A DNA stretch of 38,151 bases from Chthoniobacterales bacterium (GTDB lineage Bacteria; Verrucomicrobiota; Verrucomicrobiia; Chthoniobacterales; JACTMZ01). Positions 1-12,084 of the stretch are shown here, piece after piece. Made by a program: the position numbers and the translations under genes. Below the pieces are notes generated by a model, which did no database searches, was not told where the DNA came from, and worked only from the letters and a program-made list of their open reading frames with translations. The DNA lies in assembly GCA_018883245.1 (NCBI GenBank), contig VEQL01000025.1:1-38151 (forward strand), in the 5' to 3' direction. Numbering within the stretch: position 1 is the first letter of the stretch; each line of letters opens with the position of its first letter.

Positions 1-1156
1 AGGCCACGCTATAGCCCTGACCGCCGTGCCATGTGGTCTTCCAGCGCCAGGTCGGATTGTGCTGCTCATCGACAAACGGCCCGCGCCAGGTTTCCCCGTC
101 TGCCGACAGCCACGTCGTGGATTGCGGACGATTCGCGGTCAGACTCACTCCCGCGGTCGCCAGCAACTCTCCGTGCGGCGTGATCGAAAGCCCCGCCTCG
201 CGCACATCCCCGCCCTCCCACGCGAGGAGATCCGCAGATTCCCAGGTCTGGCCCTCGTCGCGTGAGCGGATGACCCGCAGCTTGCCGCTGACGTCAAACT
301 CGTGAATCCGGCCTTCACGGAAGCAGCAAAACCATTGATCCTTGAAACGGATCAGGCCGGTAAAACCATTGTGCGGAGCCTGGTCCCAGATTTTCCGCAC
401 CTCGAGCAGTTGCAGCGATCCGTCGGCCGAGCGCGGACTGTTCGAGGCGAAACGGTCGTCGTGGGCGACGCCGATGGAATCCAAGGCGGCCCGACCGTCG
501 TCGGACGGGGTTCCCGCGCGGGAGGCATACTTCATGAACAAGGCGCCGGAATCATCGGCGAACCGGAATCCTGCAGGCGTGGATACGGGAAGGCACATAT
601 CATGCACCGCCTTGGTCTGCGAATCGTAGCGCAGAAATCTGGCGACCGAACCATCCCACGTGAGCACCAGCCTGTCGCCCGCATGCAGCGGCGAAAAATG
701 CCAGTTCACGGCCGGCTCGAGCCCCGTGACGGCAAGCGTGATGTTTCCGCTCAGGCCAGAGTCGGCGGCAGTGTAGTTGATCGTGCCGGCCAGCGCCCGA
801 TCGTCGGCGTCGATGACCCCGAACGTGAAGGCCTCATGCTGCCCGGTGCCGGTGGTCTGCTTGGAAAATGCATTCGCCGGCAGTTCGATGAACACGACCA
901 GCGGTTCTTCGGGTGTGCCAGCCAGCTTGAAATCCTTCCTCCGGGAAACATAGGTGGCCGACCCCGGCCAGGTGGCGGCGGAACTGAAGGCCAGCACCCC
1001 ATCTTCGATCGTCCACTTCAAGCCGGTGTCGGTCGAGGTGGTGGACCAATTATCCATCAGATTCCCCGTCGAAAAATCGTCGAAAACTTCTGCCTGCGCG
1101 AGGCCTCCGATGAGTAACCCGAGTGCCACAATGACTGTCTTGGTTGTTTTTTTCAT
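1..1156 (-). CDS. Secreted sialidase-like (BNR/Asp-box) protein, 3' end outside window
   Basis: The frame is open from the ATG at 1156 to the window edge (385 codons, C-terminus missing). The N-terminus is a signal peptide (MKKTTKTVIVALGLLIGG, cleavage near AQA-EV). Residues about 25-220 look like a beta-sandwich of the LamG/concanavalin type (starting FDDFSTGNLMDNW), and a beta-propeller begins near 240. Two Asp-boxes, SRDEGQTW near residue 295 and SADGETW near 353, are the hallmark of sialidase-type propellers. The protein probably acts outside the cytoplasm on a terminal sugar of a glycan, but Asp-boxes also occur in non-sialidases and the catalytic residues cannot be judged from this part. 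It lies 139 bases downstream of the GH110-like gene on the same strand, so it is probably cotranscribed with it. No clear ribosome binding site was seen. Confidence 0.75.
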   Translation of the reverse strand, partial: MKKTTKTVIVALGLLIGGLAQAEVFDDFSTGNLMDNWSTTSTDTGLKWTIEDGVLAFSSAATWPGSATYVSRRKDFKLAGTPEEPLVVFIELPANAFSKQTTGTGQHEAFTFGVIDADDRALAGTINYTAADSGLSGNITLAVTGLEPAVNWHFSPLHAGDRLVLTWDGSVARFLRYDSQTKAVHDMCLPVSTPAGFRFADDSGALFMKYASRAGTPSDDGRAALDSIGVAHDDRFASNSPRSADGSLQLLEVRKIWDQAPHNGFTGLIRFKDQWFCCFREGRIHEFDVSGKLRVIRSRDEGQTWESADLLAWEGGDVREAGLSITPHGELLATAGVSLTANRPQSTTWLSADGETWRGPFVDEQHNPTWRWKTTWHGGQGYSVA

Positions 1157-1295
1157 GTTGCTAAAAAGGTTGCTTTTGGCGACAGGCCCCTGAAAGAGCC
1201 ATTGAGCCGGACCGGAGGGCGGGAAAAAGGGGGTTGATGTTTTCATCAGTGTGATGGCACAAGGAAGAGGATGGGTAGAATTTTCAGCAATGTGG

Positions 1296-3362
1296 TTATG
1301 GGACGTGGATCTTTCCGTTCCATGGTCCGGCAACATGCAGGCCCTTGAAGAACGGCGGCGCTTCCTCGACACGGTTTCCGGTGAGGGTGACCTCATCGCT
1401 GGCGGAAATAAAGATGCCGTAAAACGGCTCGCGCAGCACGGGTATCAGCTCCCCCGGCACGGGCGGGGCGAATTTTTGCTCGATCACTCCTGGCCGGGTC
1501 AGGTCGAGGAAGCACAGCTTTTCAGGCGTAGCTTGGAAGGGCCGGACGATCACGTTGTCGGCGACGGTCACGCCACGGCTGTTGCCGATGAAGATGGGCA
1601 GGCCCTGGGTGTCGATGATCCGGTTGCCCCGGATCTCGATGTCTTCGTAGAGGATTTGAGGAGTCAGGTGGAGAAAGGCTTCCTGGTGGAACGGCGGCAG
1701 GCAGGGCGACAGCGAGATCGCGCCCCATGCCGCCCAGATCACTCCATCGGCAAAATCAAAGCCGAAGACGCTCGGCCCGCAGTTGGTGAAGGTATTGCCG
1801 AGAATTTTTGTGTGGCTGGGAAGGCCGCCTTCGAGAAATTCCGTCACTCCGGTGGCCAGCGACAGGCCTCCAAAGCTGATGTTTTCGAATCGGCTTCCTT
1901 CGACAATCGAGTCGGGGGCTTTGAGCAAAATGCCGCGGTTGCATCCTTCATGCATGTGAAGATTGGTGATGCGGGTGCCGCGTCCGGTGTATTCTTGGGA
2001 GATGGCCATGTCGAGGACTGCAAGTTCCACCGGGCTGTCGAGGGTGACCGCGCAGAATTCGGGTTTGATCACGTCGCGGATCGGCGTGCCGAACTCTTGT
2101 TTGTAGCGCTCCTGCATCCGCTCGTAGAGTTTGAGCCCTTCGGCTTTGTCAAATGCCTCCCATGCGGTCACCTTAGCCGTGGCCAGCGGCTTCATGTCGG
2201 GAGCCTGGCGGAGGATCAACTCGGTGCCGATGTCATAATCGCGGCCATGGATGCTGGCCAGGACACAGCGGCCATCGGGAAGGACATCCACCACCACGTT
2301 GATGAAGCCGTGGATGTTGATGCCGTCGTCGTGGGTTCGCGCGATCTCACAGTCTGTCAGCATCGGCCCTTTGTGCTGATTGAAGGAATGGAAGCCGTCG
2401 GCCGCGCCGACACCGATGCGGGTGGAACCCGGGCGCGGGATGATTTTCATCCGCGTGTAGGTGTTTCCGCCCGGTGCCCGATCGCCTTTTTCCCAGACAC
2501 AGAAGGAGCCGGATGAAAAGACGGTCAAATCCGTAAAGTGCATGCCGCCACAGTTGAGGATCACCACTCCGCCGCTGTTGTTTTTGTCGTGAACCGAAAG
2601 ACGGTCGCCGATCTCAACAGCACCCGCTGCATTCCCGCGATAGATCCACGCCGCCTTGCCGGGCGGCAGATCGGGGTCATCCATCGCATTGAGCTTCTCG
2701 GGATAAGGCATCACGCCGCCGTCGCGGCGCATGTGCCATTGGCGGCCGACGCCGGCCGATTTGCTGGAAAACCCTTTTTCGACATCGACGATGATCTTGT
2801 CGTTTCCGGCAGAGAATCCATCGGGAATGATCTGCGAGACGACTCCCTGGATGAACGGCGCCCTGATCATGTCCATGGTGAGACCACTCACTGTGATGTT
2901 CCTGCAAGTGTCAAACACCGCGGCCGATGAGGGTTGTTCGCCGGAGGTCCAGATGGTGGCTCCGGTGGCATCGATGCGCATGTTCTCCGCGCCGGTCACC
3001 GTGAGCACGCTGCGGTGTCCGCCTTGCCCCGGCACCATCCACTCGGTGTAATCGCCTGGGGGGATGCGGAAATGTGGCGCCTTCGCCGCGATCGCCGCAT
3101 TGAGGTCCTGCTGCACTTTGCGCGCCGCGTCGGAGGCGGCCTGGCGTTCGGCATCAGTCCAGTTCAAAACCCGCTGGAGATGCGCGTCGCTGTGGTGATC
3201 CGGCACGCTCTCAGCTTGTTCGCCTGCTTTGGGCTGTTCCGGATTGTTGTTGCAACCCGACATGACGGATGCGCCTGCCGCAATGAGAGATAAAATCACG
3301 CACACGCTTCGGCGTCCCGGGCAGCCAGCATCGCGGTTCATCCCGACATTGGTTGTTCTCAT
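1296..3362 (-). CDS. GH110-like right-handed beta-helix lipoprotein
   Basis: 688 residues from the ATG at 3362; MNRDAG at 3341 is an alternative start. A longer reading to 3551 would run into the upstream AraC gene and across the operator, so it is rejected. The N-terminus has a hydrophobic stretch ending VMSGC, a lipobox-like site with Cys37, so it is probably a lipoprotein. The body is a parallel beta-helix with repeated N-x-I/V-T turns (CRNITVSG, SRGVTVADN, DEVTLTGN). The segment LTMDMIRAPFIQG, the motif ADGFHSF near 321 and HDDGINIHG near 344-352 match in order the conserved blocks of GH110 alpha-1,3-galactosidases (TADATHF and DDAINVHG types), including the three aspartates thought to be catalytic. 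Release of alpha-linked galactose is therefore likely, though the true substrate is unknown. It is preceded by operator copy A. Confidence 0.72.
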   Translation of the reverse strand: MRTTNVGMNRDAGCPGRRSVCVILSLIAAGASVMSGCNNNPEQPKAGEQAESVPDHHSDAHLQRVLNWTDAERQAASDAARKVQQDLNAAIAAKAPHFRIPPGDYTEWMVPGQGGHRSVLTVTGAENMRIDATGATIWTSGEQPSSAAVFDTCRNITVSGLTMDMIRAPFIQGVVSQIIPDGFSAGNDKIIVDVEKGFSSKSAGVGRQWHMRRDGGVMPYPEKLNAMDDPDLPPGKAAWIYRGNAAGAVEIGDRLSVHDKNNSGGVVILNCGGMHFTDLTVFSSGSFCVWEKGDRAPGGNTYTRMKIIPRPGSTRIGVGAADGFHSFNQHKGPMLTDCEIARTHDDGINIHGFINVVVDVLPDGRCVLASIHGRDYDIGTELILRQAPDMKPLATAKVTAWEAFDKAEGLKLYERMQERYKQEFGTPIRDVIKPEFCAVTLDSPVELAVLDMAISQEYTGRGTRITNLHMHEGCNRGILLKAPDSIVEGSRFENISFGGLSLATGVTEFLEGGLPSHTKILGNTFTNCGPSVFGFDFADGVIWAAWGAISLSPCLPPFHQEAFLHLTPQILYEDIEIRGNRIIDTQGLPIFIGNSRGVTVADNVIVRPFQATPEKLCFLDLTRPGVIEQKFAPPVPGELIPVLREPFYGIFISASDEVTLTGNRVEEAPPFFKGLHVAGPWNGKIHVP

Positions 3363-3404
3363 TATTTTTATGAACTGTCCGGATACTACGAATGCAAACC
3401 GCCC

Positions 3405-3445
3405 CATTCCTACGGAAGATTTGTGCTGTTCCGGGTCGTTTTGTG
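3405..3445 (-). promoter_or_regulatory. Tandem AraC-type operator, copy A
   Basis: Reading the minus strand, two similar half-sites lie head to tail with 20-base spacing: CACAAAACGACCCGGAACAG (3445-3426), then CACAAA-N4-CC-GTAGGAA (from 3425). The second half-site has the same core as copies at 5051 and 7463. The gene start is at 3362, with a possible -10 region TAGTAT near 3388-3383. AraC/XylS regulators usually bind such tandem repeats next to the -35 region. The regulator gene directly upstream (3455-4354) is the obvious candidate partner; that link is inference. Confidence 0.65.
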
Positions 3446-3454
3446 AGGCGGATC

Positions 3455-4354
3455 TCAGCGTGATGCGCCATCCGGAGCACCGGAGCGACGACAGTTGAGC
3501 TTGCGGTAGGCACCGGGGCTCATGCCATAGCTTTTGCGAAAGACCTTGCACAATCGGCTGGTGTCGCCATAGCCGTGGTCGCAGGCGATTTCCTCCAGGG
3601 TTTTGCCGGTGAGGCGCAGATCCTGCTCGATCCTGTGGATGCGGAACTGGGTGATGAACGCCGCGGGACTGTCGCCGGTCTTATCTTTGAAAATCCGGGT
3701 AAAATGCGAGCGGGTGAGATCGAAGTAAGCGGCCAGTTCCTCGATCGATGGCGGCGCGGCGGGATTTTTGTTCAGAACGGCGAGCACCCGGTTCTGCCAA
3801 ATATGGCTCTCCTTGGGCGAGGCAGCGGGTTCCCTCAGTTCGCGTTCGGCCGCGCACATCCAGTCGAAGATGTGGGCCTCCTCCTCGTAGCTGTCGGCAA
3901 ACACCCCGTTTTGCGTGAGCCGGATCAGATCCGCGCTCTTGGTGATAAGAGGATGCCGCTCGTCGAGCTCGATCACGCCGCAATGCTGCTCGAGAGCCGC
4001 GGCGATGCGGCTGACGGTGTGGGGATGTTGGAACGTTAGGTAGAAAAAGTTCCACCCGGGGGAATCCGGTGGAAGCTTGTAAACATGCGCGGAAGGGATC
4101 ACCGCGAAAAAGGCGCGACCCTTTTCCATGCGGTGCTGCTTATTGGCGCGGGTGAAAAGCCCGCATCCGCTAAACGTGTATTGGAAGAGCAGTTGGGGAT
4201 GCTCCGGAGGCCGGTTGCGCTTCAGGCCGTCCCAATCATAATCCTCGCCCTTCATCAGCCGCCCGGCTCCGAAAAAAAGCCGTGGCTGCCCCCGGTAGGG
4301 GCTGGGCATCCGCCGCTTGACGGATAAGAGCCGGGTCAATTCCTGTTCGAGCAT
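3455..4354 (-). CDS. AraC/XylS-family transcriptional regulator
   Basis: 299 residues. The N-terminal half (about 20-170) resembles the cupin-like sugar-sensing domain of AraC proteins. The C-terminal 100 residues carry two helix-turn-helix units: IEELAAYFDLTRSHFTRIFK, then LEEIACDHGYGDTSRLCKVF, followed by the family signature YGMSPGAYRK. It probably senses a sugar released by the neighbouring glycosidases and activates the genes that carry the tandem repeat found at 3405, 5031 and 7443. It lies 92 bases upstream of the GH110-like gene on the same strand and back to back with the GH78-like gene. No strong ribosome binding site precedes the ATG; the region 4355-4400 contains a short dyad at 4378-4394. 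Confidence 0.92.
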   Translation of the reverse strand: MLEQELTRLLSVKRRMPSPYRGQPRLFFGAGRLMKGEDYDWDGLKRNRPPEHPQLLFQYTFSGCGLFTRANKQHRMEKGRAFFAVIPSAHVYKLPPDSPGWNFFYLTFQHPHTVSRIAAALEQHCGVIELDERHPLITKSADLIRLTQNGVFADSYEEEAHIFDWMCAAERELREPAASPKESHIWQNRVLAVLNKNPAAPPSIEELAAYFDLTRSHFTRIFKDKTGDSPAAFITQFRIHRIEQDLRLTGKTLEEIACDHGYGDTSRLCKVFRKSYGMSPGAYRKLNCRRSGAPDGASR

Positions 4355-4480
4355 GGGAGACGCGCCGATTGTTATTCATCGGAGGAATTCCGATAAGGTC
4401 AAAGAACATTTCCCCTTCTGGCAGGACAATCAAAAACCGGCCGGTGGCATTCGCATCGGAAACCTGGCGATCGTTGCGCC

Positions 4481-4740
4481 TCAGCCGCCGAGCAGGAACA
4501 CATCGATCCCGGGGACGTTCTCCAGCGTGCCGGCCACGACCCAATCATTGGTCACCACCGTCAAATGATCCCGCCGGACCAACAGGCAGGCCAATTCACG
4601 GGTGGTGGTGCCGGTGTCCAGCAATATGGTATCACCGTTCTGTGGACCTTCTTGCGCGCGCAAATGGGTTGTTGAATCCTCATCCGCCTCTCTTCCGCAT
4701 AGAACGTCTCAGCCTTGGTGACAACCATGGCGGATTGCCG
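4481..4740 (-). pseudogene. Relic of a DeoR-family repressor (sensor domain)
   Basis: Two overlapping minus-strand frames together give a broken DeoR C-terminal domain. One frame (about 4740-4630) reads KAETFYAEERRMRIQQPI, resembling the linker entering the DeoR sensor domain. The other (4663-4481) reads NGDTILLDTGTTTRELACL, then LTVVTNDWVVAGTLENV and LLGG, which are the phosphosugar-binding blocks (D-x-GTTT, VTN, GG) of DeoR proteins. The frames switch near 4640, a stop follows LLGG, and a third frame below 4480 (RRNDRQVSDANATGRF) may be the faded continuation. The helix-turn-helix part is absent. The gene is dead; it points to a lost regulator of this locus. Confidence 0.65.
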
Positions 4741-4809
4741 ACATGGTTGCCGGATGGCAAGACGCAATATCCGTGCCGCCTTCGTTTCAAGACCAAAAGG
4801 GCGCGGCAA

Positions 4810-4833
4810 TGAGTAGAGTAGCTACTCTACTCA
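4810..4833. promoter_or_regulatory. Perfect 24-base palindrome, orphan operator or hairpin
   Basis: TGAGTAGAGTAG is followed immediately by its exact reverse complement, with no spacer. On the plus strand it is followed by AACCGG and a run of T, which also gives it the look of an intrinsic terminator. It lies between the DeoR relic and an AraC tail relic, so neither flanking gene is intact. A perfect operator for a dimeric repressor (LacI, GntR or DeoR type) is equally possible. Confidence 0.5.
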
Positions 4834-4850
4834 ACCGGCTTTTTTTGTGG

Positions 4851-4895
4851 CGCTACGGCATGAACCCCGGTGCCTACAGGCGCGCAGCGGCATGA
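4851..4895 (+). pseudogene. C-terminal scrap of a second AraC regulator
   Basis: The plus strand reads RYGMNPGAYRRAAA and a stop. This matches the conserved end of AraC-family proteins and is nearly the same as YGMSPGAYRK in the neighbouring intact regulator, which lies on the other strand. Nothing AraC-like is visible upstream of it, where the 24-base palindrome and T-run lie. It is best explained as the surviving end of a deleted regulator that once pointed towards the GH78-like gene. Confidence 0.6.
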
Positions 4896-4932
4896 ACCGG
4901 AGGCCCGCCGCCCCTTGCCTGCACGGCGGGAA

Positions 4933-5031
4933 ATGACTTCACCGAAGTCCACTCAAACGACATTGTCCCTGGCCGCCGCCCTGCTGTCCAGTTTGAGTGC
5001 GGGGGAGGGGAAGGCCATCCCGGTCCCATGA
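4933..5031 (+). pseudogene. Orphan signal-peptide ORF (32 residues)
   Basis: MTSPKSTQTTLSLAAALLSS, followed by LSAGEGKAIPVP and a stop, has the charge, hydrophobic core and small-residue end of a Sec signal peptide, and ends where a mature protein should begin. GCGGG lies just before the ATG. The stop codon abuts operator copy B. It is probably the 5' scrap of a secreted enzyme whose body was lost; a genuine small exported peptide cannot be excluded. Confidence 0.35.
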
Positions 5032-5071
5032 GGAAAAAAACCGCAGACAGCACAAATCGCCCGTAGGAATG
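5031..5071 (+). promoter_or_regulatory. Tandem AraC-type operator, copy B
   Basis: Half-site 1 at 5031-5050 (AGGAAAAAAACCGCAGACAG) is degenerate. Half-site 2 from 5051 is CACAAA-N4-CC-GTAGGAA, identical to copy A apart from the N positions. A likely -10 region, CGGCTAGCGTT, follows at 5082-5092 and resembles CGGCTAGGATG behind copy C. It precedes the GH78-like gene. Confidence 0.65.
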
Positions 5072-5235
5072 CGGGGCATCTTCGGCTAGCGTTGGCCCCG
5101 GCTTTTGAAGCTATGGAAAAGAGCCGTTCGTTAACAATTCCCCAACAATCCCCGCAGAAAGAATCCTTTTGCTGCCCCGGCGATTCCTGCAATGCAGCCC
5201 CATCTTCCCCTGATGGGTTCAAGCGCCGCGATTTC

Positions 5236-7440
5236 ATGAAGCCTGCTTCAAAAGGGGATGAGCAAACATGGAATGCCCAGTGGGTCAGTGTGTGGGCACT
5301 GGAATTGAAGCGTTCCAACCTGTGGCTTTGCTTCCGCAAGACCGTGGTTTTGGATGCGAAGCCGGCGTCGGCCCGCGTGCGCATCGCGGCGGACTCGAAA
5401 TACTGGCTGTGGATCAACGGGGGACTGGTAGTGCATGAAGGCCAGCTCAAGCGCGGGCCGACTCCGAACGACACGTATTACGACGAGATCGACATTGCGC
5501 GGTATCTGCGGCCCGGCGAAAACACCCTGTGCGTGCTGTTGTGGTATTTCGGGAAGGAGGGATTCTGCCACAAATCCAGCGGAGTGGCGGCGATGGTTTT
5601 CGAGGGGGATCTCGATGGCCGCCCGCTGCTCAGCGACCGCACATGGAAGGTGCGGGTGCATCCGGGGTTCGGGGAGTCCGCCCCGCCGTATCCCAATATC
5701 CGGCTGCCGGAATCCAACATCCATTTTGATGCCCGGCTCGACATGCCCGGCTGGAACGCTTGCGGTTTCGATGATTCGGCATGGGACAATGCCTCCGAGT
5801 TGGGCCGCCCACCGACGCATCCTTGGAACCGGCTTGTCCGTCGCCCGGTGCCGCTCTGGCGCTTTGGCGGCCTGCTGCCTTATTCCAACGAGGCCGATTT
5901 TCCCGAAAAAAACAACTGGCTCGAAAACTCGGTGCTTCGCGCCCGGCTGCCGGGCAACCTTTCGGTTTGCCCCGCCCTGAAAATCGATGCGAAGCCCGGC
6001 CTGAAAATCTCGATCTTCACCGACAATTATCGCGGCGGCAGCGAATACAACGTGCGGGTCGATTACATCACCAAAGAAGGAATTCAGGAATTTGAAAGCC
6101 CCGCCTACCTCACCGGCCACGAGGTGATCTACGACTTTCCTTCGGGGGTCAGGGTGTTGGAGCTGAAATACCGCCACTCGCATTTTGATACGGCGGTCAC
6201 CGGCCGGTTCCAATGTTCGGATGAGTTCCTCAACTCCCTGTGGAGGAAGTCCGCCAACACGATGCTTCTCAACATGCGCGACGGCATCCAGGACCCCGAC
6301 CGCGAGCGCGCCCAATGGTGGGGGGATGTCGTCATCCTCATTGGAATGATCGTGCACTCCTGCGATGAAGCCGGACTTTCCGCCATCCGGAAGGCCGTCC
6401 ATAACCTGGTCGATTGGCAGAAGCCGGACGGCGTGCTCTACTCCCCGGTGCCGGCGGGGAACTGGTTTCTCGAACTGCCCGATCAGATGCGCGCCGCCAT
6501 CGGCAAATACGGGTTCTGGTATTATTTCCGCCATACCGGGGACCGGGAGACCATCGCCCGTGCGTATCCTGCGGTGACGCGCTATCTCGACCTGTGGAAA
6601 ATCGGGACCGACGGATTGGTCATCCGCCGCACCGGGGGATGGGACTGGGGCGACTGGGGGGAAAACAAGGACATGCCGGTGCTGATCAACGCCTGGTTTT
6701 ACATGGCGCTGGAATCGGCAAGAGACATGGCGGCGTTGCTGGGAGACGAGGCTGCGGCACTTGCCCGCCAAACGGAAATGGACGGGCTGAAGGAAAGCTT
6801 TAACCGCATTTTCTGGACAGGCCGCGAATACCGGTCGCCGGGGCATGACGGCGAACCGGACGACCGCGGCCAGGCACTGGCGATCGTCGCAGGACTCGCT
6901 CAAAAAAATTTTTTCCCTGCCCTTGGCGACCTCTTTTTGAGGAGGTTCGAGGCAAGTCCCTACATGGAGAAATACGTGCTGGAGGCGCTGTTTATGATGG
7001 ACCGTCCGGAGCAGGCGCTTGCGCGGATGAAGAGCCGATACCGGCCGATGGTCGAAAGCCCGTTCTGCACGCTGTGGGAATCCTGGTCGTTTGGCGACGC
7101 CAACTCGGCCAAATACGGTGGTGGAACATACAACCACGGCTGGGCGGGAGGCCCCCTCACCCTCATGGCCGAACACATCGCCGGCATCAGCCCGCTCGCT
7201 CCCGGCTTCGAACGCTTCCGCATGGCTCCCCGCATCGGATTGCTGGAACAATTCGACTGCACGGTGCCCGCGCGCGGCGGAGTCCTGGAAATGCGTCAGG
7301 AAAAATTTGCGGAGGGATACCGCCTGACCATCTCCGTTCCGGAAGGCTGCTCCGGCGAACTGCTTTTGGCCTCCCGCCCGCCGGTGGATTTGAAACCTGG
7401 AAAATCGGAATTTCTCATCGCCGGATCCGAGGGAGCGTGA
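5236..7440 (+). CDS. GH78-like alpha-L-rhamnosidase family protein
   Basis: 734 residues from the ATG at 5236. A start at 5113 (MEKSRS) is in frame, and still further upstream the reading would begin at or before the probable transcription start, so the shorter form is preferred. Residues 10-160 form a beta-sandwich typical of the substrate-binding part of bacterial rhamnosidases (FRKTVVLD, YWLWINGGLVVHEGQ, TLCVLLWYFG). A (alpha/alpha)6 barrel follows, with DPDRERAQWWGD, the counterpart of the acidic GH78 motif, and GGTYNHGWAGGP near the end, then a C-terminal beta domain. No signal peptide is visible, so it may act in the cytoplasm on imported oligosaccharides. Substrate could be rhamnose or a related deoxysugar. 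It carries operator copy B and is followed by the transporter gene with its own copy C. Confidence 0.82.
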   Translation: MKPASKGDEQTWNAQWVSVWALELKRSNLWLCFRKTVVLDAKPASARVRIAADSKYWLWINGGLVVHEGQLKRGPTPNDTYYDEIDIARYLRPGENTLCVLLWYFGKEGFCHKSSGVAAMVFEGDLDGRPLLSDRTWKVRVHPGFGESAPPYPNIRLPESNIHFDARLDMPGWNACGFDDSAWDNASELGRPPTHPWNRLVRRPVPLWRFGGLLPYSNEADFPEKNNWLENSVLRARLPGNLSVCPALKIDAKPGLKISIFTDNYRGGSEYNVRVDYITKEGIQEFESPAYLTGHEVIYDFPSGVRVLELKYRHSHFDTAVTGRFQCSDEFLNSLWRKSANTMLLNMRDGIQDPDRERAQWWGDVVILIGMIVHSCDEAGLSAIRKAVHNLVDWQKPDGVLYSPVPAGNWFLELPDQMRAAIGKYGFWYYFRHTGDRETIARAYPAVTRYLDLWKIGTDGLVIRRTGGWDWGDWGENKDMPVLINAWFYMALESARDMAALLGDEAAALARQTEMDGLKESFNRIFWTGREYRSPGHDGEPDDRGQALAIVAGLAQKNFFPALGDLFLRRFEASPYMEKYVLEALFMMDRPEQALARMKSRYRPMVESPFCTLWESWSFGDANSAKYGGGTYNHGWAGGPLTLMAEHIAGISPLAPGFERFRMAPRIGLLEQFDCTVPARGGVLEMRQEKFAEGYRLTISVPEGCSGELLLASRPPVDLKPGKSEFLIAGSEGA

Positions 7441-7442
7441 AA

Positions 7443-7482
7443 CAAAAAACAACCGTGAATAGCACAAAACACCGGTAGGAAG
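7443..7482 (+). promoter_or_regulatory. Tandem AraC-type operator, copy C
   Basis: It begins two bases after the GH78-like stop codon. Half-site 1 is CAAAAAACAACCGTGAATAG (7443-7462) and half-site 2 is CACAAAACACCGGTAGGAAG (7463-7482), so the tandem character is clearest here. A candidate -10, CGGCTAGGATG, lies near 7494. The transporter start is 155 bases further on; the leader resembles that of copy B (TGGAAGCCATCGATGAAGCCG-like), suggesting that the two promoter regions arose by duplication. Confidence 0.65.
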
Positions 7483-7637
7483 AAGCGCCTCCTGCGGCTA
7501 GGATGCTTTCTTGATTGGAAGCCATCGATGAAGCCGAACCTCCCCGACAATCCGCCTGTTGCGACTCCTCTCACGGCAAAATTTCCGATCCGCCCGGTGA
7601 TGCGGTGAAGAGCTGATAGATAAACGGCATTTGAACC

Positions 7638-8993
7638 ATGAAACCCACCGGAAAAATCTGGAAACACCTCGGGCTGGGCGCAGGCGGCGCCGTTGAAAAC
7701 TCGTTCCAGAACGCGCCGCTCGGACTGGTCAATCCGATTTACAATGTCGGCCTCGGCGTCAGTCCGGTGCTGGTCGGCATTGCGATGGCCGTGCCGCGGT
7801 TTTGGGAACTCCTCATCGATCCGCTGATCGGCGCTGCAAGCGACCGGACCCGCAGCCGTTTCGGCCGGCGTTTGCCTTTTATCGCCTTCGGCCTGCTCGG
7901 CAGTCTGGTGTTCTTCATCGCCATGTGGTGGGCCCCGGCGGGCATGTCCAAACAGGCGCTGGGAATCTGGCTCATTGTCACGGCGTTTCTGTTTTACACC
8001 TGCTACTCGTTTTTCGCCATTCCCTACGCCGGCCTTACCATCGAGGCCAGTGTGGCCGGGCCCGACCGCATCGGCGTGATGACCGCGCGCACCGCATTCG
8101 CCAATTCCAGCCAGATCGTCATCAGTTGGATCTATTGGTTCTGCCAGCGGGAATGGTTTTCCTCGCCCGCGATCGGCATGCGCTGGGCAGGGATCGGTTT
8201 CGGCCTGCTGGTCACGCTTTGTGGCGTGGCGGTGATCGTCACCACGCTGCGCTGCGGGCTCCACCGCCACAGCAGCCATGAGGGCTCCGAGCCGGTCGAG
8301 AAGGGGATCTATCGGAAACTCCTGTCGCTGGCTCCCACGCGCCGTATCCTGACGGCATTGCTGAGCACGATGGTGGGCTTTACCCTCGTCAGCCACCTGA
8401 GTTTCTATCTGGTCGCGTTTCACGCCTGCCAAGGCGATCTCAAGCAGGCGTCGCTGGTGGTGGCGGTCAAGGCGACCGTCACCATGATCGCCGCGGTGAT
8501 CGCATGTCCGCTCATCGGCATGGCGGCCAAGCGTTTCGGTAAGGAACGGATCTTCAACATCATGCTGGCCACCGGGGTGGTCTCCAGCCTCTCGATGTGG
8601 TATCTCATCACGCCGCTCAATCCCTACCTGAGCATGATCAGCGATCTTGGCATCTACCTCTGCCTCGTCGGATTCTGGTTGCTCATGCCGGCGTATCTGG
8701 GCGACATCAGCGATTATTACGAGCGCGCGACCGGCCAGAGCTGCCAGGGCACCTTGTCCGCGCTCTACGGCAACGCGGTGAAAATCGGCGCTTCCGTGGC
8801 GCTGCTGCTCACCGGCTACATCCTCGTCGTTTGCGGCTTTGATGCCGCCATGCCGCACGAGGCGATGGGCCGTCCGCTTTTCAACATGCGCATCCTCTTC
8901 GCCGTGGTGCCGAGCATCGGCCTGGTGATCGCGTATTTCGCCATGGCCCGGTTCCGCCTGCCAAACCACGGATCACCGCCCCAAACGTCCTGA
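7638..8993 (+). CDS. GPH-family (MelB-like) sugar:cation symporter
   Basis: 451 residues with about 12 hydrophobic segments. The N-terminal region has the family blocks GIAMAVPRFWELLIDPLIGAA followed by SDRTRSRFGRRLPFI, the loop between helices 2 and 3 typical of glycoside-pentoside-hexuronide transporters. It is expected to import mono- or disaccharides or uronides with H+ or Na+ in the inner membrane. It follows the GH78-like gene on the same strand with its own operator copy C, and the wrecked sulfatase gene starts 11 bases after its stop, so transporter and sulfatase formed one transcript. Confidence 0.9.
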   Translation: MKPTGKIWKHLGLGAGGAVENSFQNAPLGLVNPIYNVGLGVSPVLVGIAMAVPRFWELLIDPLIGAASDRTRSRFGRRLPFIAFGLLGSLVFFIAMWWAPAGMSKQALGIWLIVTAFLFYTCYSFFAIPYAGLTIEASVAGPDRIGVMTARTAFANSSQIVISWIYWFCQREWFSSPAIGMRWAGIGFGLLVTLCGVAVIVTTLRCGLHRHSSHEGSEPVEKGIYRKLLSLAPTRRILTALLSTMVGFTLVSHLSFYLVAFHACQGDLKQASLVVAVKATVTMIAAVIACPLIGMAAKRFGKERIFNIMLATGVVSSLSMWYLITPLNPYLSMISDLGIYLCLVGFWLLMPAYLGDISDYYERATGQSCQGTLSALYGNAVKIGASVALLLTGYILVVCGFDAAMPHEAMGRPLFNMRILFAVVPSIGLVIAYFAMARFRLPNHGSPPQTS

Positions 8994-9004: not shown

Positions 9005-9157
9005 ATGGTATCTTTCCATTCCCACATCCTGCTTGCGGCGCTGCTCACATGCCGGTTGGTGGAAACGGGCGCGGCCATCGCGGTCGGACAATCCGCCAAG
9101 CCGAATGTCCTGCTGATTTTATCCGATGACCGACGGCTCGACACAGTGGGCTGCTAG
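9005..9157 (+). pseudogene. Sulfatase, 5' fragment cut by IS1380
   Basis: The ATG at 9005 opens a signal-peptide-like stretch, then AKPNVLLILSDDRRLDTVGC, the start of a type I sulfatase: the two aspartates belong to the metal site and GC is normally followed by Tyr-Gly. Here a TAG stands at that Tyr codon, and its last bases are the target duplication of the insertion element that follows. The frame continues on the other side of the element at 10732, so fragment and continuation are one gene. It was the last gene of the operon with the GH78-like protein and transporter. Confidence 0.8.
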
Positions 9158-9186: not shown

Positions 9187-9256
9187 GTAGCGAAGCTCCG
9201 CAGGTAACCTGCTAATGTTGTTGGTGTTATGCAAACAACAGTTGGAGCTTCGCTAC
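9187..9256. other. 13-base-pair stem bracketing the transposase start
   Basis: GTAGCGAAGCTCC (9187-9199) and its exact reverse complement GGAGCTTCGCTAC (9244-9256) enclose 44 bases that contain the transposase ATG at 9229. A smaller dyad GCAGGT-A-ACCTGC lies in the loop. In a transcript entering from outside, this stem could hide the start region, as known for IS10 and IS50, while a transcript starting inside the element would lack the left arm. The structure is seen; the function is inferred. Confidence 0.5.
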
Positions 9257-10569
9257 GGACAGATTGTGCACCGGAACTTTTTGTTTTTCCAAGCTTTGAT
9301 CGTCGGAAAATCGAGGGAAGTTTTACCGGTGGGGACGTTTCCAGTGATGGCGGGCTGATGGCGCTGCGCTTGGCGGACAAGAAGCTGGGTTTGATCGCCG
9401 CCTTGGATGCGGTGATTGAGGATCCGCGCGAGGCCGATCAGGTGGTGCACCGGCAGCGCGATCTTTTGTCTCAGCGCATTTACGGACTGGCCTTGGGTTA
9501 CGAGGATCTCAACGACCACGACACCTTGCGCAAGGACTTGCTGTGGCAGAGTGCGGTGGAGCGCGGGCAGGAACTGGCCAGCAGTCCGACGTTGTGTCGT
9601 TTGGAACGACGCGCTGACCGGCAGACGGCTTGGGCCATGTCGAAGGTCCTGGTTGAGTTGTTCATCCAAAGCTTCCAAGAGGCTCCGTCCGAACTGATCC
9701 TGGATTTTGATGCGACCGATGACCGGGTGCACGGGCAGCAGGAGGGCCGGGCTTTTCACGGCTACTATGGCGACTGGTGTTTTTTGCCCCTTTACGTTTT
9801 TTGCGGCGAGCAACTCTTGGTCAGTTACCTGCGGCCGAGCAATCAAGATCCCGCCCGGCATGCGTGGGCTATTTTGAAGTTGTTGGTCACGCGCCTGCGC
9901 CAGGAGTGGCCGCAGGTGAAGATCATCTTCCGCGGCGACTCGGGCTTTTGCCGTTGGCGCATGCTGCGGTGGTGTGAGAAGAGCGGGGTGGATTACGTGG
10001 TGGGCTTGGCCAAGAACGAGCGCCTGCTGGCGTTACTTGAAAAGCCGATGGCGCAAGCAGCGGCCGCCTTCGAGCAAACCAAGGAAAAGCAACGGCACTT
10101 CGTGCGCTTGGCGTATGCGGCCAAGAGCTGGGATCGGGCGCGCTCGGTCGTCGCCAAAGCCGAGCACACCGAGAAGGGAGCCAACCCGCGCTTTATCCTC
10201 ACCAGCTTGGAGAGCGAAGAGCAGAAGATCTACGATGAGATCTACTGCGCGCGCGGAGAGATGGAAAATCGCATCAAGGAACAACAACTCGGACTCTTCG
10301 CCGACCGCACCAGTTGCCACGGTTGGTGGGCCAACCAGTTCCGCCTGCTCTTGTCCTCGGCGGCCTATGTGCTCATGGAATACATGCGCCGCATCGCCCT
10401 GGCCGGCACCGAACTGGCCCGCGCCCAAGTCACCACCATCCGGCTCAAGCTGCTCAAGATCGGCACGGTCATCTTGCGCAACACGCGCCGCATCCGCCTG
10501 CTCTTTTCCAGCGCTTATCCCCACCAGCAACTCTTTGCCACCATGCTCGGGCGCCTCAACTCGGCCTGA
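9229..10569 (+). CDS. IS1380-family DDE transposase
   Basis: 446 residues, full length for the family. It starts with the typical IEGSFTGGDVSSDGGLMALR block (residues 28-47). The catalytic acidic residues are visible in LDFDATDD (about 158-165), FRGDSGF (234-240, Asp237) and ARGEMENRIKE (341-351, Glu346), the spacing expected of a DDE transposase with an inserted beta domain. No frameshift or internal stop was found. The start codon lies within a predicted stem-loop (9187-9256) and has no good ribosome binding site, which suggests low or controlled translation. Confidence 0.95.
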   Translation: MQTTVGASLRTDCAPELFVFPSFDRRKIEGSFTGGDVSSDGGLMALRLADKKLGLIAALDAVIEDPREADQVVHRQRDLLSQRIYGLALGYEDLNDHDTLRKDLLWQSAVERGQELASSPTLCRLERRADRQTAWAMSKVLVELFIQSFQEAPSELILDFDATDDRVHGQQEGRAFHGYYGDWCFLPLYVFCGEQLLVSYLRPSNQDPARHAWAILKLLVTRLRQEWPQVKIIFRGDSGFCRWRMLRWCEKSGVDYVVGLAKNERLLALLEKPMAQAAAAFEQTKEKQRHFVRLAYAAKSWDRARSVVAKAEHTEKGANPRFILTSLESEEQKIYDEIYCARGEMENRIKEQQLGLFADRTSCHGWWANQFRLLLSSAAYVLMEYMRRIALAGTELARAQVTTIRLKLLKIGTVILRNTRRIRLLFSSAYPHQQLFATMLGRLNSA

Positions 10570-11241: not shown

Positions 11242-12084
11242 TCAGACTAGCTGGCCCCAGTGAACTCGGCGGTAGCGGTTTGGCGGCATGCCGTAGCGGG
11301 CTTTGAAGCGGGCATACAGATGGCCGACACTCTCGAAGCCCACACTCATTCCAAGCTCGATGATCGGAGTCGCGGTGCAGCGAAGCTGGCACTCGAAAGC
11401 CTGCAGTCGCACGGCGTTGACGTATTCCGTCGGAGAGACGCCAAGCCAGGCGCGGGTGGTCCGCGCCACATGCTCGGAGCCACGTCCACACAAACGCACC
11501 CATGCCGGCACTCCTTCCCGCATGGCCTCAGGCTCACGGATGCCCCGGCATGCGCGTGCCAGCCAGTCCGGTATTCCCGTCGGCAGCGTCCGGGCTCCGG
11601 CACTTACCGCGATCAGGTGCAGCAGGCTCAGCAAAAAGCGATCCAGCTCACGCGCGCTTCGCGATGCCGTGGCCAGTTCGCCGGTCCAGTCGCGCAGCCG
11701 GTCGAGTTGCGCACGCTCTAACACCCTGATCTCCGGCAGGCTGGCTTCGGACCACGGCCAAAGAGGATCGTTCTGGAAATAACGGTGCTGGATTTCGCGC
11801 AGATGTTCGGTGGAAAAGGCCAGGTTTGCAAAGCCCAGCGGCCCATGCGGCAGTTTTTCCACGCTATGCACATCGTGCGGGCGGATGAAAACCACCGAAC
11901 CCGCACCCAGATCGAGTGTCACGCCATTGACGTGATGGCGGGCCTTCCCTTGAAAAATCCAGAACACCTCCGCATAGCAATGCGTGTGCATCGAAACCCC
12001 CCAGCGACTCGTCCGCAAATCGCTTTGCAAATGAAATATCTCTCCGGGCCGGAGGTAACCGTCAAGTTTCAACACAACAATCAT
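11242..12084 (-). CDS. AraC-family regulator with cupin domain
   Basis: 280 residues. An N-terminal cupin-like domain (about 10-120) contains MHTHCYAEVFWIFQGKARHH and GSVVFIRPHDVHSV, the pattern of a metal-free or sugar-sensing cupin. The C-terminal two-HTH region includes HVARTTRAWLGVSPTEYVNA and IIELGMSVGFESVGHLYARF, followed by YGMPPNRYRR. It is divergent from the PhyH gene with 65 bases between the starts, and that gap holds a 21-base-spaced direct repeat. It therefore probably controls itself and the 12150-19857 gene series. Confidence 0.92.
   Translation of the reverse strand: MIVVLKLDGYLRPGEIFHLQSDLRTSRWGVSMHTHCYAEVFWIFQGKARHHVNGVTLDLGAGSVVFIRPHDVHSVEKLPHGPLGFANLAFSTEHLREIQHRYFQNDPLWPWSEASLPEIRVLERAQLDRLRDWTGELATASRSARELDRFLLSLLHLIAVSAGARTLPTGIPDWLARACRGIREPEAMREGVPAWVRLCGRGSEHVARTTRAWLGVSPTEYVNAVRLQAFECQLRCTATPIIELGMSVGFESVGHLYARFKARYGMPPNRYRRVHWGQLV

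Follow-up and report, generated by a model that had tools for sequence, protein, structure and literature searches.

Tandem direct repeats as candidate operators of a small AraC-type glycan-utilisation regulon in a Chthoniobacterales bacterium

A 38,151-nucleotide stretch of DNA from a Chthoniobacterales bacterium (contig VEQL01000025.1, assembly GCA_018883245.1; hereafter the window) contains three copies, called A, B and C here, of a tandem direct repeat. We consider it likely, with a probability of about 0.85, that these copies are operators of a small glycan-utilisation regulon read by the AraC/XylS-family protein encoded at 3455-4354. The original prediction, made from the window alone, had proposed such an AraC-read regulon of GH110-like, GH78-like and transporter genes, and comparison with other genomes supported it at the level of sequence through the genome-wide restriction of the sites, their conservation and their co-occurrence with the regulator gene. 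The switch is of an ordinary kind and previously undescribed for these genes; in the open literature we found no paper describing this motif or regulon, and no DNA-binding motif described for any Verrucomicrobiota AraC protein that controls glycan genes.

The half-site CACAAANNNNCSGTAGGAA (CACAAA-N4-C[CG]GTAGGAA) matched the window exactly at 3407-3425 on the minus strand (copy A) and at 5051-5069 and 7463-7481 on the plus strand (copies B and C), as originally predicted, and a pattern search allowing up to two mismatches detected nothing in the window beyond these three half-sites. Dinucleotide shuffles of the window gave a mean of 0.07 matches, and three matches were reached in 0 of 100 shuffles. 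In the bacterium's own genome (G000; 2.9 Mb in 84 contigs) the three window copies were the only matches without mismatch, zero matches were found at exactly one mismatch, and the five found at two mismatches equalled the level of the reversed-pattern control. The motif is therefore not spread at random through the genome. Each copy is a tandem direct repeat of about 40 bp with a period of 20. When the proximal 18 bp were compared with upstream DNA at ten sites from three genomes (the three window copies and seven from relatives), the best shift was exactly 20 with a mean identity of 46%, followed by 39% at a shift of 16. This argues that the tandem repeat is real and agrees with the related half-site that had been predicted 20 bases upstream. 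The half-site consensus was approximately CACAAA-N4-CC-GTARRA. Written in the direction of the downstream gene, copy A is CACAAAACGACCCGGAACAG followed by CACAAATCTTCCGTAGGAAT, copy B is AGGAAAAAAACCGCAGACAG followed by CACAAATCGCCCGTAGGAAT and copy C is CAAAAAACAACCGTGAATAG followed by CACAAAACACCGGTAGGAAG; the distal half-site was strong in A, fair in C and degenerate in B, where it was A-rich with a conserved ACC. AraC/XylS-type operators have this arrangement, with half-sites directly repeated in tandem at a distance of about two helical turns.

Models built from some of the genomes recovered the sites in the others. Relatives with sites were an Akkermansiaceae metagenome-assembled genome (MAG; ZE-15may19-223, CANLKN010000021.1; L017 = G213) and G084, a 4.7 Mb genome of another family in the same order. 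A matrix built only from L017 and G084 sites scored copies A, C and B at 38.4, 30.7 and 28.1 in the window, with the next match at 10.7. Conversely, a matrix built only from copies A-C placed three sites first in L017 (34.9, 33.4 and 30.9; next 9.5), scored a fourth MAG site at 31.4 and ranked the best site of G084 first (29.3). A sequence-only profile built from eight sites (R2) returned exactly three matches in the own genome at E<=5, copies A, B and C, all at about 37 bits, and recovered the four cluster sites of the MAG together with an unlinked fifth site outside the training set (C31:32955-32987, 33.3 bits). A weak MAG match at C7:37342 fell within an open frame and was discounted as a chance match. 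Profile scans of ten congeners, which lack the regulator, gave nothing above 14.3 bits, and their pattern matches at one mismatch (one each in G001, G004 and G005) were rejected as being at the reversed-control level. With a longer model (R1) only the own genome (56-60 bits) and G084 (61 bits) stood out among 213 genomes of the order, the rest scoring <=18.6 bits. All model searches ran with a first-look filter, and weak sites elsewhere may escape them.

The motif was kept beside orthologous genes in both the MAG and G084, which also retain the AraC gene, in line with the conservation expected of a regulon. MAG sites precede a GH106 rhamnosidase gene (7249), a GH110-like orthologue (10810), a GH116-like gene (15157) and a second GH110-like paralogue (L030:13055), and downstream of the unlinked C31 site come a GH4 gene and then a GPH transporter orthologous to the one behind copy C. 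The four profile matches in G084 all fell on C32, the contig carrying the AraC orthologue. The best sits in the interval separating the AraC and GH110-like orthologues, and the three weaker ones precede a gene of prepilin type, one of PEP-CTERM type and the GH78 orthologue. The GH78 match falls at the beginning of its gene, and the other three are strand-matched in front of cluster genes. The enzymes encoded downstream of the sites (GH78, GH106, GH4, GH110-like and GH116-like) suggest a galactose- and rhamnose-containing glycan, although the substrate is a guess. The inducer, likewise at the level of a guess, may be a galactose- or rhamnose-containing oligosaccharide.

Residues 207-285 of the 3455-4354 protein matched HTH_18 (E 4.6e-22) and HTH_AraC (E 6.2e-12), giving the C-terminal double helix-turn-helix (HTH) domain, about 100 residues long, that typifies the AraC/XylS family. 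A structure model of moderate confidence (pLDDT 75) has a beta-rich N-terminal domain and an all-helical C-terminal double-HTH domain. Foldseek matched the model to BgaR, AraC, ToxT and MarA, and its C-terminal domain to MarA, GadX and AdpA structures. The N-terminal half, where sugar regulators of the family carry a cupin-like domain for sensing and dimerisation, had no Pfam match and in the model superposes on the arm domains of BgaR and AraC. The best superposition of this domain was on lactose-sensing BgaR (PDB 6nwo; TM score by target length 0.76, 14% identity), a likeness from which the ligand is not transferable because the sequence is too distant. Orthologues linked to sites were 86% (MAG) and 59% (G084) identical, and the HTH residues RSHFTRIFK and SRLCKVFRK were near-identical in the three orthologues and changed in relatives of 34-35% identity that lack sites. 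Ten congeners contained no orthologue, only one 31% relative in G002, and a phylum-wide search (388 genomes, E<=1e-55) matched only the own genome.

The sites thus occur only at target genes and are inherited together with the regulator gene, and this co-occurrence suggests that the 3455-4354 protein binds them. The genome has other AraC genes, one of them in the window (11242-12084), and the sites could be operators of this same regulon read by one of these or by some other regulator. We regard this as unlikely because no AraC gene other than the 3455-4354 orthologue is linked to sites across the three genomes, and because every genome searched has either both the sites and this gene or neither, whereas the MAG orthologues of the 11242-12084 gene are unlinked (C28 and C179) and its relative in G084 is 32% identical at best. 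Considered in its own right, the 11242-12084 gene (minus strand) encodes a further AraC-family protein with a cupin-type sensing domain, and its two MAG orthologues, away from the sites, are 79-82% identical.

The sites hold a fixed position over the -35 region of a predicted sigma-70-like promoter. All nine sites kept the second-position A and the sixth-position T of a TAnnnT hexamer at a single offset, with a one-base slip allowed; any other offset gave <=6. In sigma-70 -10 hexamers these two bases are the most strongly conserved. The proximal half-site extends over the -35 position, where the hexamer TAGGAA is a poor match to TTGACA. The -35/-10 region belongs to the conserved unit, with the putative -10 assigned by its letters. 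GTAGGAA was ruled out as the organism's general -35 element: GTAGGAA-N17/18-TAnnnT occurred five times genome-wide against five in the control, and three of the five were copies A, B and C, so this combination is not a general promoter signature. Sequence shared by copies B and C had also been predicted. CGGCTAG is common to both and, since TAnnnT holds its fixed offset in all nine sites, is best read as part of the -10-like hexamer and the core promoter; little is shared beyond it (upstream flank score 7 against a shuffle mean of 6.9, downstream 14 against a shuffle maximum of 14).

We infer activation rather than repression. AraC/XylS activator promoters usually combine tandem sites against the -35 with a weak -35 hexamer. 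Because the half-sites here are in tandem with a period of 20, two protomers would sit head-to-tail on one DNA face, one per 18-20 bp half-site. The regulator would sense a sugar derived from the substrate glycan and act as a class II AraC-type activator standing in for the poor -35 element, switching on three promoters: promoter A for the GH110-like gene and the gene behind it, promoter B for the GH78 rhamnosidase and promoter C for the GPH-transporter operon. Some AraC-type proteins repress, and as the proximal half-site covers the -35 position the same regulator and sites could act mainly by blocking it until an inducer releases the DNA. This is very unlikely given that TAGGAA is so poor a -35 hexamer, that the sites lie in the same orientation upstream of and against the -35 as at activated AraC/XylS promoters, and that equal geometry was taken as marking activator sites in Caldicellulosiruptor (PMC8579813).

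Sites of this layout are known from other systems. XylS reads TGCA-N6-GGNTA-N6-TGCA-N6-GGNTA at Pm, and MtlR of Pseudomonas fluorescens reads AGTGC-N5-AGTAT-N7-AGTGC-N5-AGGAT at PmtlE (PMC4514859). Counted from the printed consensus, the operator periods are 21 for XylS, 21 for MekR and 22 for MtlR, whose first repeat carries a striking poly-A tract (PMC4514859). Like Pm, the sites described here have tandem direct half-sites, each made of two boxes, spaced by about two helical turns and just upstream of the promoter. They differ in the half-site itself and in a period of 20 rather than 21, and XylS controls an aromatic-acid regulon in a pseudomonad, not glycan genes in Verrucomicrobiota. MtlR, a sugar-related AraC-type activator, likewise has tandem repeats beside the -35, and its poly-A tract resembles the distal half-sites of B and C, which are A-rich; its period, its sequence and its target genes for mannitol transport are different. 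In Caldicellulosiruptor bescii, AraC-family regulons for polysaccharide-degradation genes were predicted by comparative genomics, and tandem repeats upstream of the promoter were read as activation (PMC8579813). That reconstruction resembles ours in approach, in its concern with polysaccharide-degradation genes and in repeat placement, and it deals with another phylum, partly two-component systems, and other motifs and enzymes.

The flanks of the copies bear on their history. The junction at copy A (window 3383-3460) was compared with L017 7228-7290 and 10789-10860. On the upstream side copy A matched the corresponding flank of the first MAG site, with a score of 34 against a shuffle maximum of 13; on the downstream side it matched that of the second, with 50 against a maximum of 14. 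Between these two sites the MAG keeps the GH106 rhamnosidase gene. From these alignments copy A looks like the product of a crossover between two sites that are separate in the MAG, unless the MAG gene was inserted at a site. About 100 bases between copy C and the transporter aligned with the start of the MAG GH4 gene, from its leader into the first codons (score 34, maximum 19 in 1000 shuffles), the bases before the window transporter aligned with the end of that gene, and the MAG has GH4 intact in the same operon position (L063:5037-6461). As both ends of GH4 align beside the window transporter, the gene was lost at copy C, which therefore once drove a GH4-transporter-sulfatase operon. The sulfatase in the corresponding place in the MAG appears broken too. 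The upstream flank of copy B showed no detectable relation to that of A or C in the flank comparison. A, B and C are therefore not one duplicated block. Given that copy A joins two MAG sites, that several sites share descent and that B and C both carry CGGCTAG, the copies could be mere duplicates of one promoter block with no shared regulatory role. We give this almost no credence: plain duplication was rejected by the flank comparison, with no common upstream flank and only marginal downstream likeness outside the core plus -10, and the core persists between genomes whose AraC proteins share 59% identity.

Several findings weigh against the three copies being operators of one regulon read by the 3455-4354 protein. 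The distal half-site of copy B is weak. The GH78 site in G084 reached only 12.5 bits (E 0.67) and orthologue comparison found the GH78 gene missing from the MAG, which leaves that weak site to carry conservation at copy B. No site was found in the region upstream of the regulator's own gene, so autoregulation through the motif is not indicated. Because several sites have a common origin (A with Z1 and Z2, C with Z5, and Z3 with G1), the independent promoter contexts number about 5-6, not ten.

The features of the window are listed in Table 1. Orthologues of the right-handed beta-helix protein behind copy A were 72-80% identical and lie behind sites in the MAG and G084. Its GH110-like label is tentative: the top three matches of a profile search against PDB were GH110 enzymes, but weak ones (E 0.016, 0.29 and 0.31), and a single-sequence search found no GH110 match. 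A structure model of this protein was unusable (pLDDT 29). The 1-1246 region belongs to a stretch 79% identical by blastn to L017 14211-10775, and the collinear MAG gene has no Pfam match. The GH78 protein has an 80% identical orthologue in G084, and the symporter gene has about 90% DNA identity to the transporter in the operon behind the unlinked MAG site. The sulfatase downstream of copy C is wrecked, as predicted, with an N-terminal remnant followed by a transposase gene; frames past the transposase show more sulfatase-like words. Between the AraC gene and copy B, an apparent pseudogene piece at 4482-4680 (minus strand) ends in GDTILLDTGTTTRELACLLVRRDHLTVVTNDWVVAGTLENVPGIDVFLLGG and a stop, and presumably resembles the end of a DeoR-type sensor domain.

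Table 1. Features of the window that bear on the proposed regulon
Feature	Position	Strand	Basis
Gene cut by contig edge, second behind copy A	1..1246	-	open frame; collinear with MAG L017:12965-14767
Right-handed beta-helix protein, GH110-like, signal-like N-terminus; first gene behind copy A	1296..3362	-	Pfam Beta_helix
-10-like hexamer TAGTAT, promoter A	3383..3388	-	18 bp after TAGGAA
Copy A proximal half-site CACAAATCTTCCGTAGGAA, overlaps expected -35 position	3407..3425	-	pattern and model searches
Copy A distal half-site CACAAAACGACCCGGAACAG	3426..3445	-	site alignment, period-20 self-match
AraC/XylS-family regulator, proposed reader of sites	3455..4354	-	HTH_18 E 4.6e-22
Copy B distal half-site, degenerate, A-rich	5031..5050	+	site alignment, period-20 self-match
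Copy B proximal half-site CACAAATCGCCCGTAGGAA	5051..5069	+	pattern and model searches
-10-like hexamer TAGCGT, promoter B	5087..5092	+	17 bp after TAGGAA
GH78-type alpha-L-rhamnosidase behind copy B	5113..7440 (open reading frame 5092-7440; ATG 5113 likely start)	+	Bac_rhamnosid6H E 2.6e-26
Copy C distal half-site CAAAAAACAACCGTGAATAG	7443..7462	+	site alignment, period-20 self-match
Copy C proximal half-site CACAAAACACCGGTAGGAA	7463..7481	+	pattern and model searches
-10-like hexamer TAGGAT, promoter C	7499..7504	+	17 bp after TAGGAA
Remnant of deleted GH4 gene (leader and first codons)	7509..7607	+	local alignment to L063 GH4 start
GPH/MFS_2-type sugar symporter behind copy C	7638..8993	+	MFS_2 E 1.3e-45; gph E 2.9e-33
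Sulfatase N-terminal remnant downstream of transporter	9098..9156	+	79.7% to L063 7944-8002
Transposase open reading frame after sulfatase remnant	9229-10569		DDE_Tnp_1_4 E 1.7e-167

Further observations concern the sites of the relatives. In G084 the divergent sites before the PEP-CTERM-type and prepilin-type genes (L019 4462 and 5433, minus strand) share CACNTTTTGACTGTA, a variant half-site, and one of them contains a possible small palindrome (TTTTGACTGTAGTCAAAA). A truncated third GH110-like copy lies at L017 14670-15110, just before MAG site 3, and the promoter of that site resembles that of the G084 GH110-like gene.

A tentative and rather doubtful extension is that the operators act as junctions for the gain and loss of enzyme genes in a previously undescribed, partly unlinked Verrucomicrobiales AraC-type regulon. 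If this is true, recombination at the operators could change which genes the regulon contains, as may have happened with GH106 at copy A. Verrucomicrobiota carry very large sets of glycan-degrading enzymes, and a shared motif is a direct clue to those acting on one substrate. A motif this sharp makes the regulon listable by genome scan, and here, with no prior knowledge, it connected the cluster with a GH4-transporter operon that is unlinked to it.

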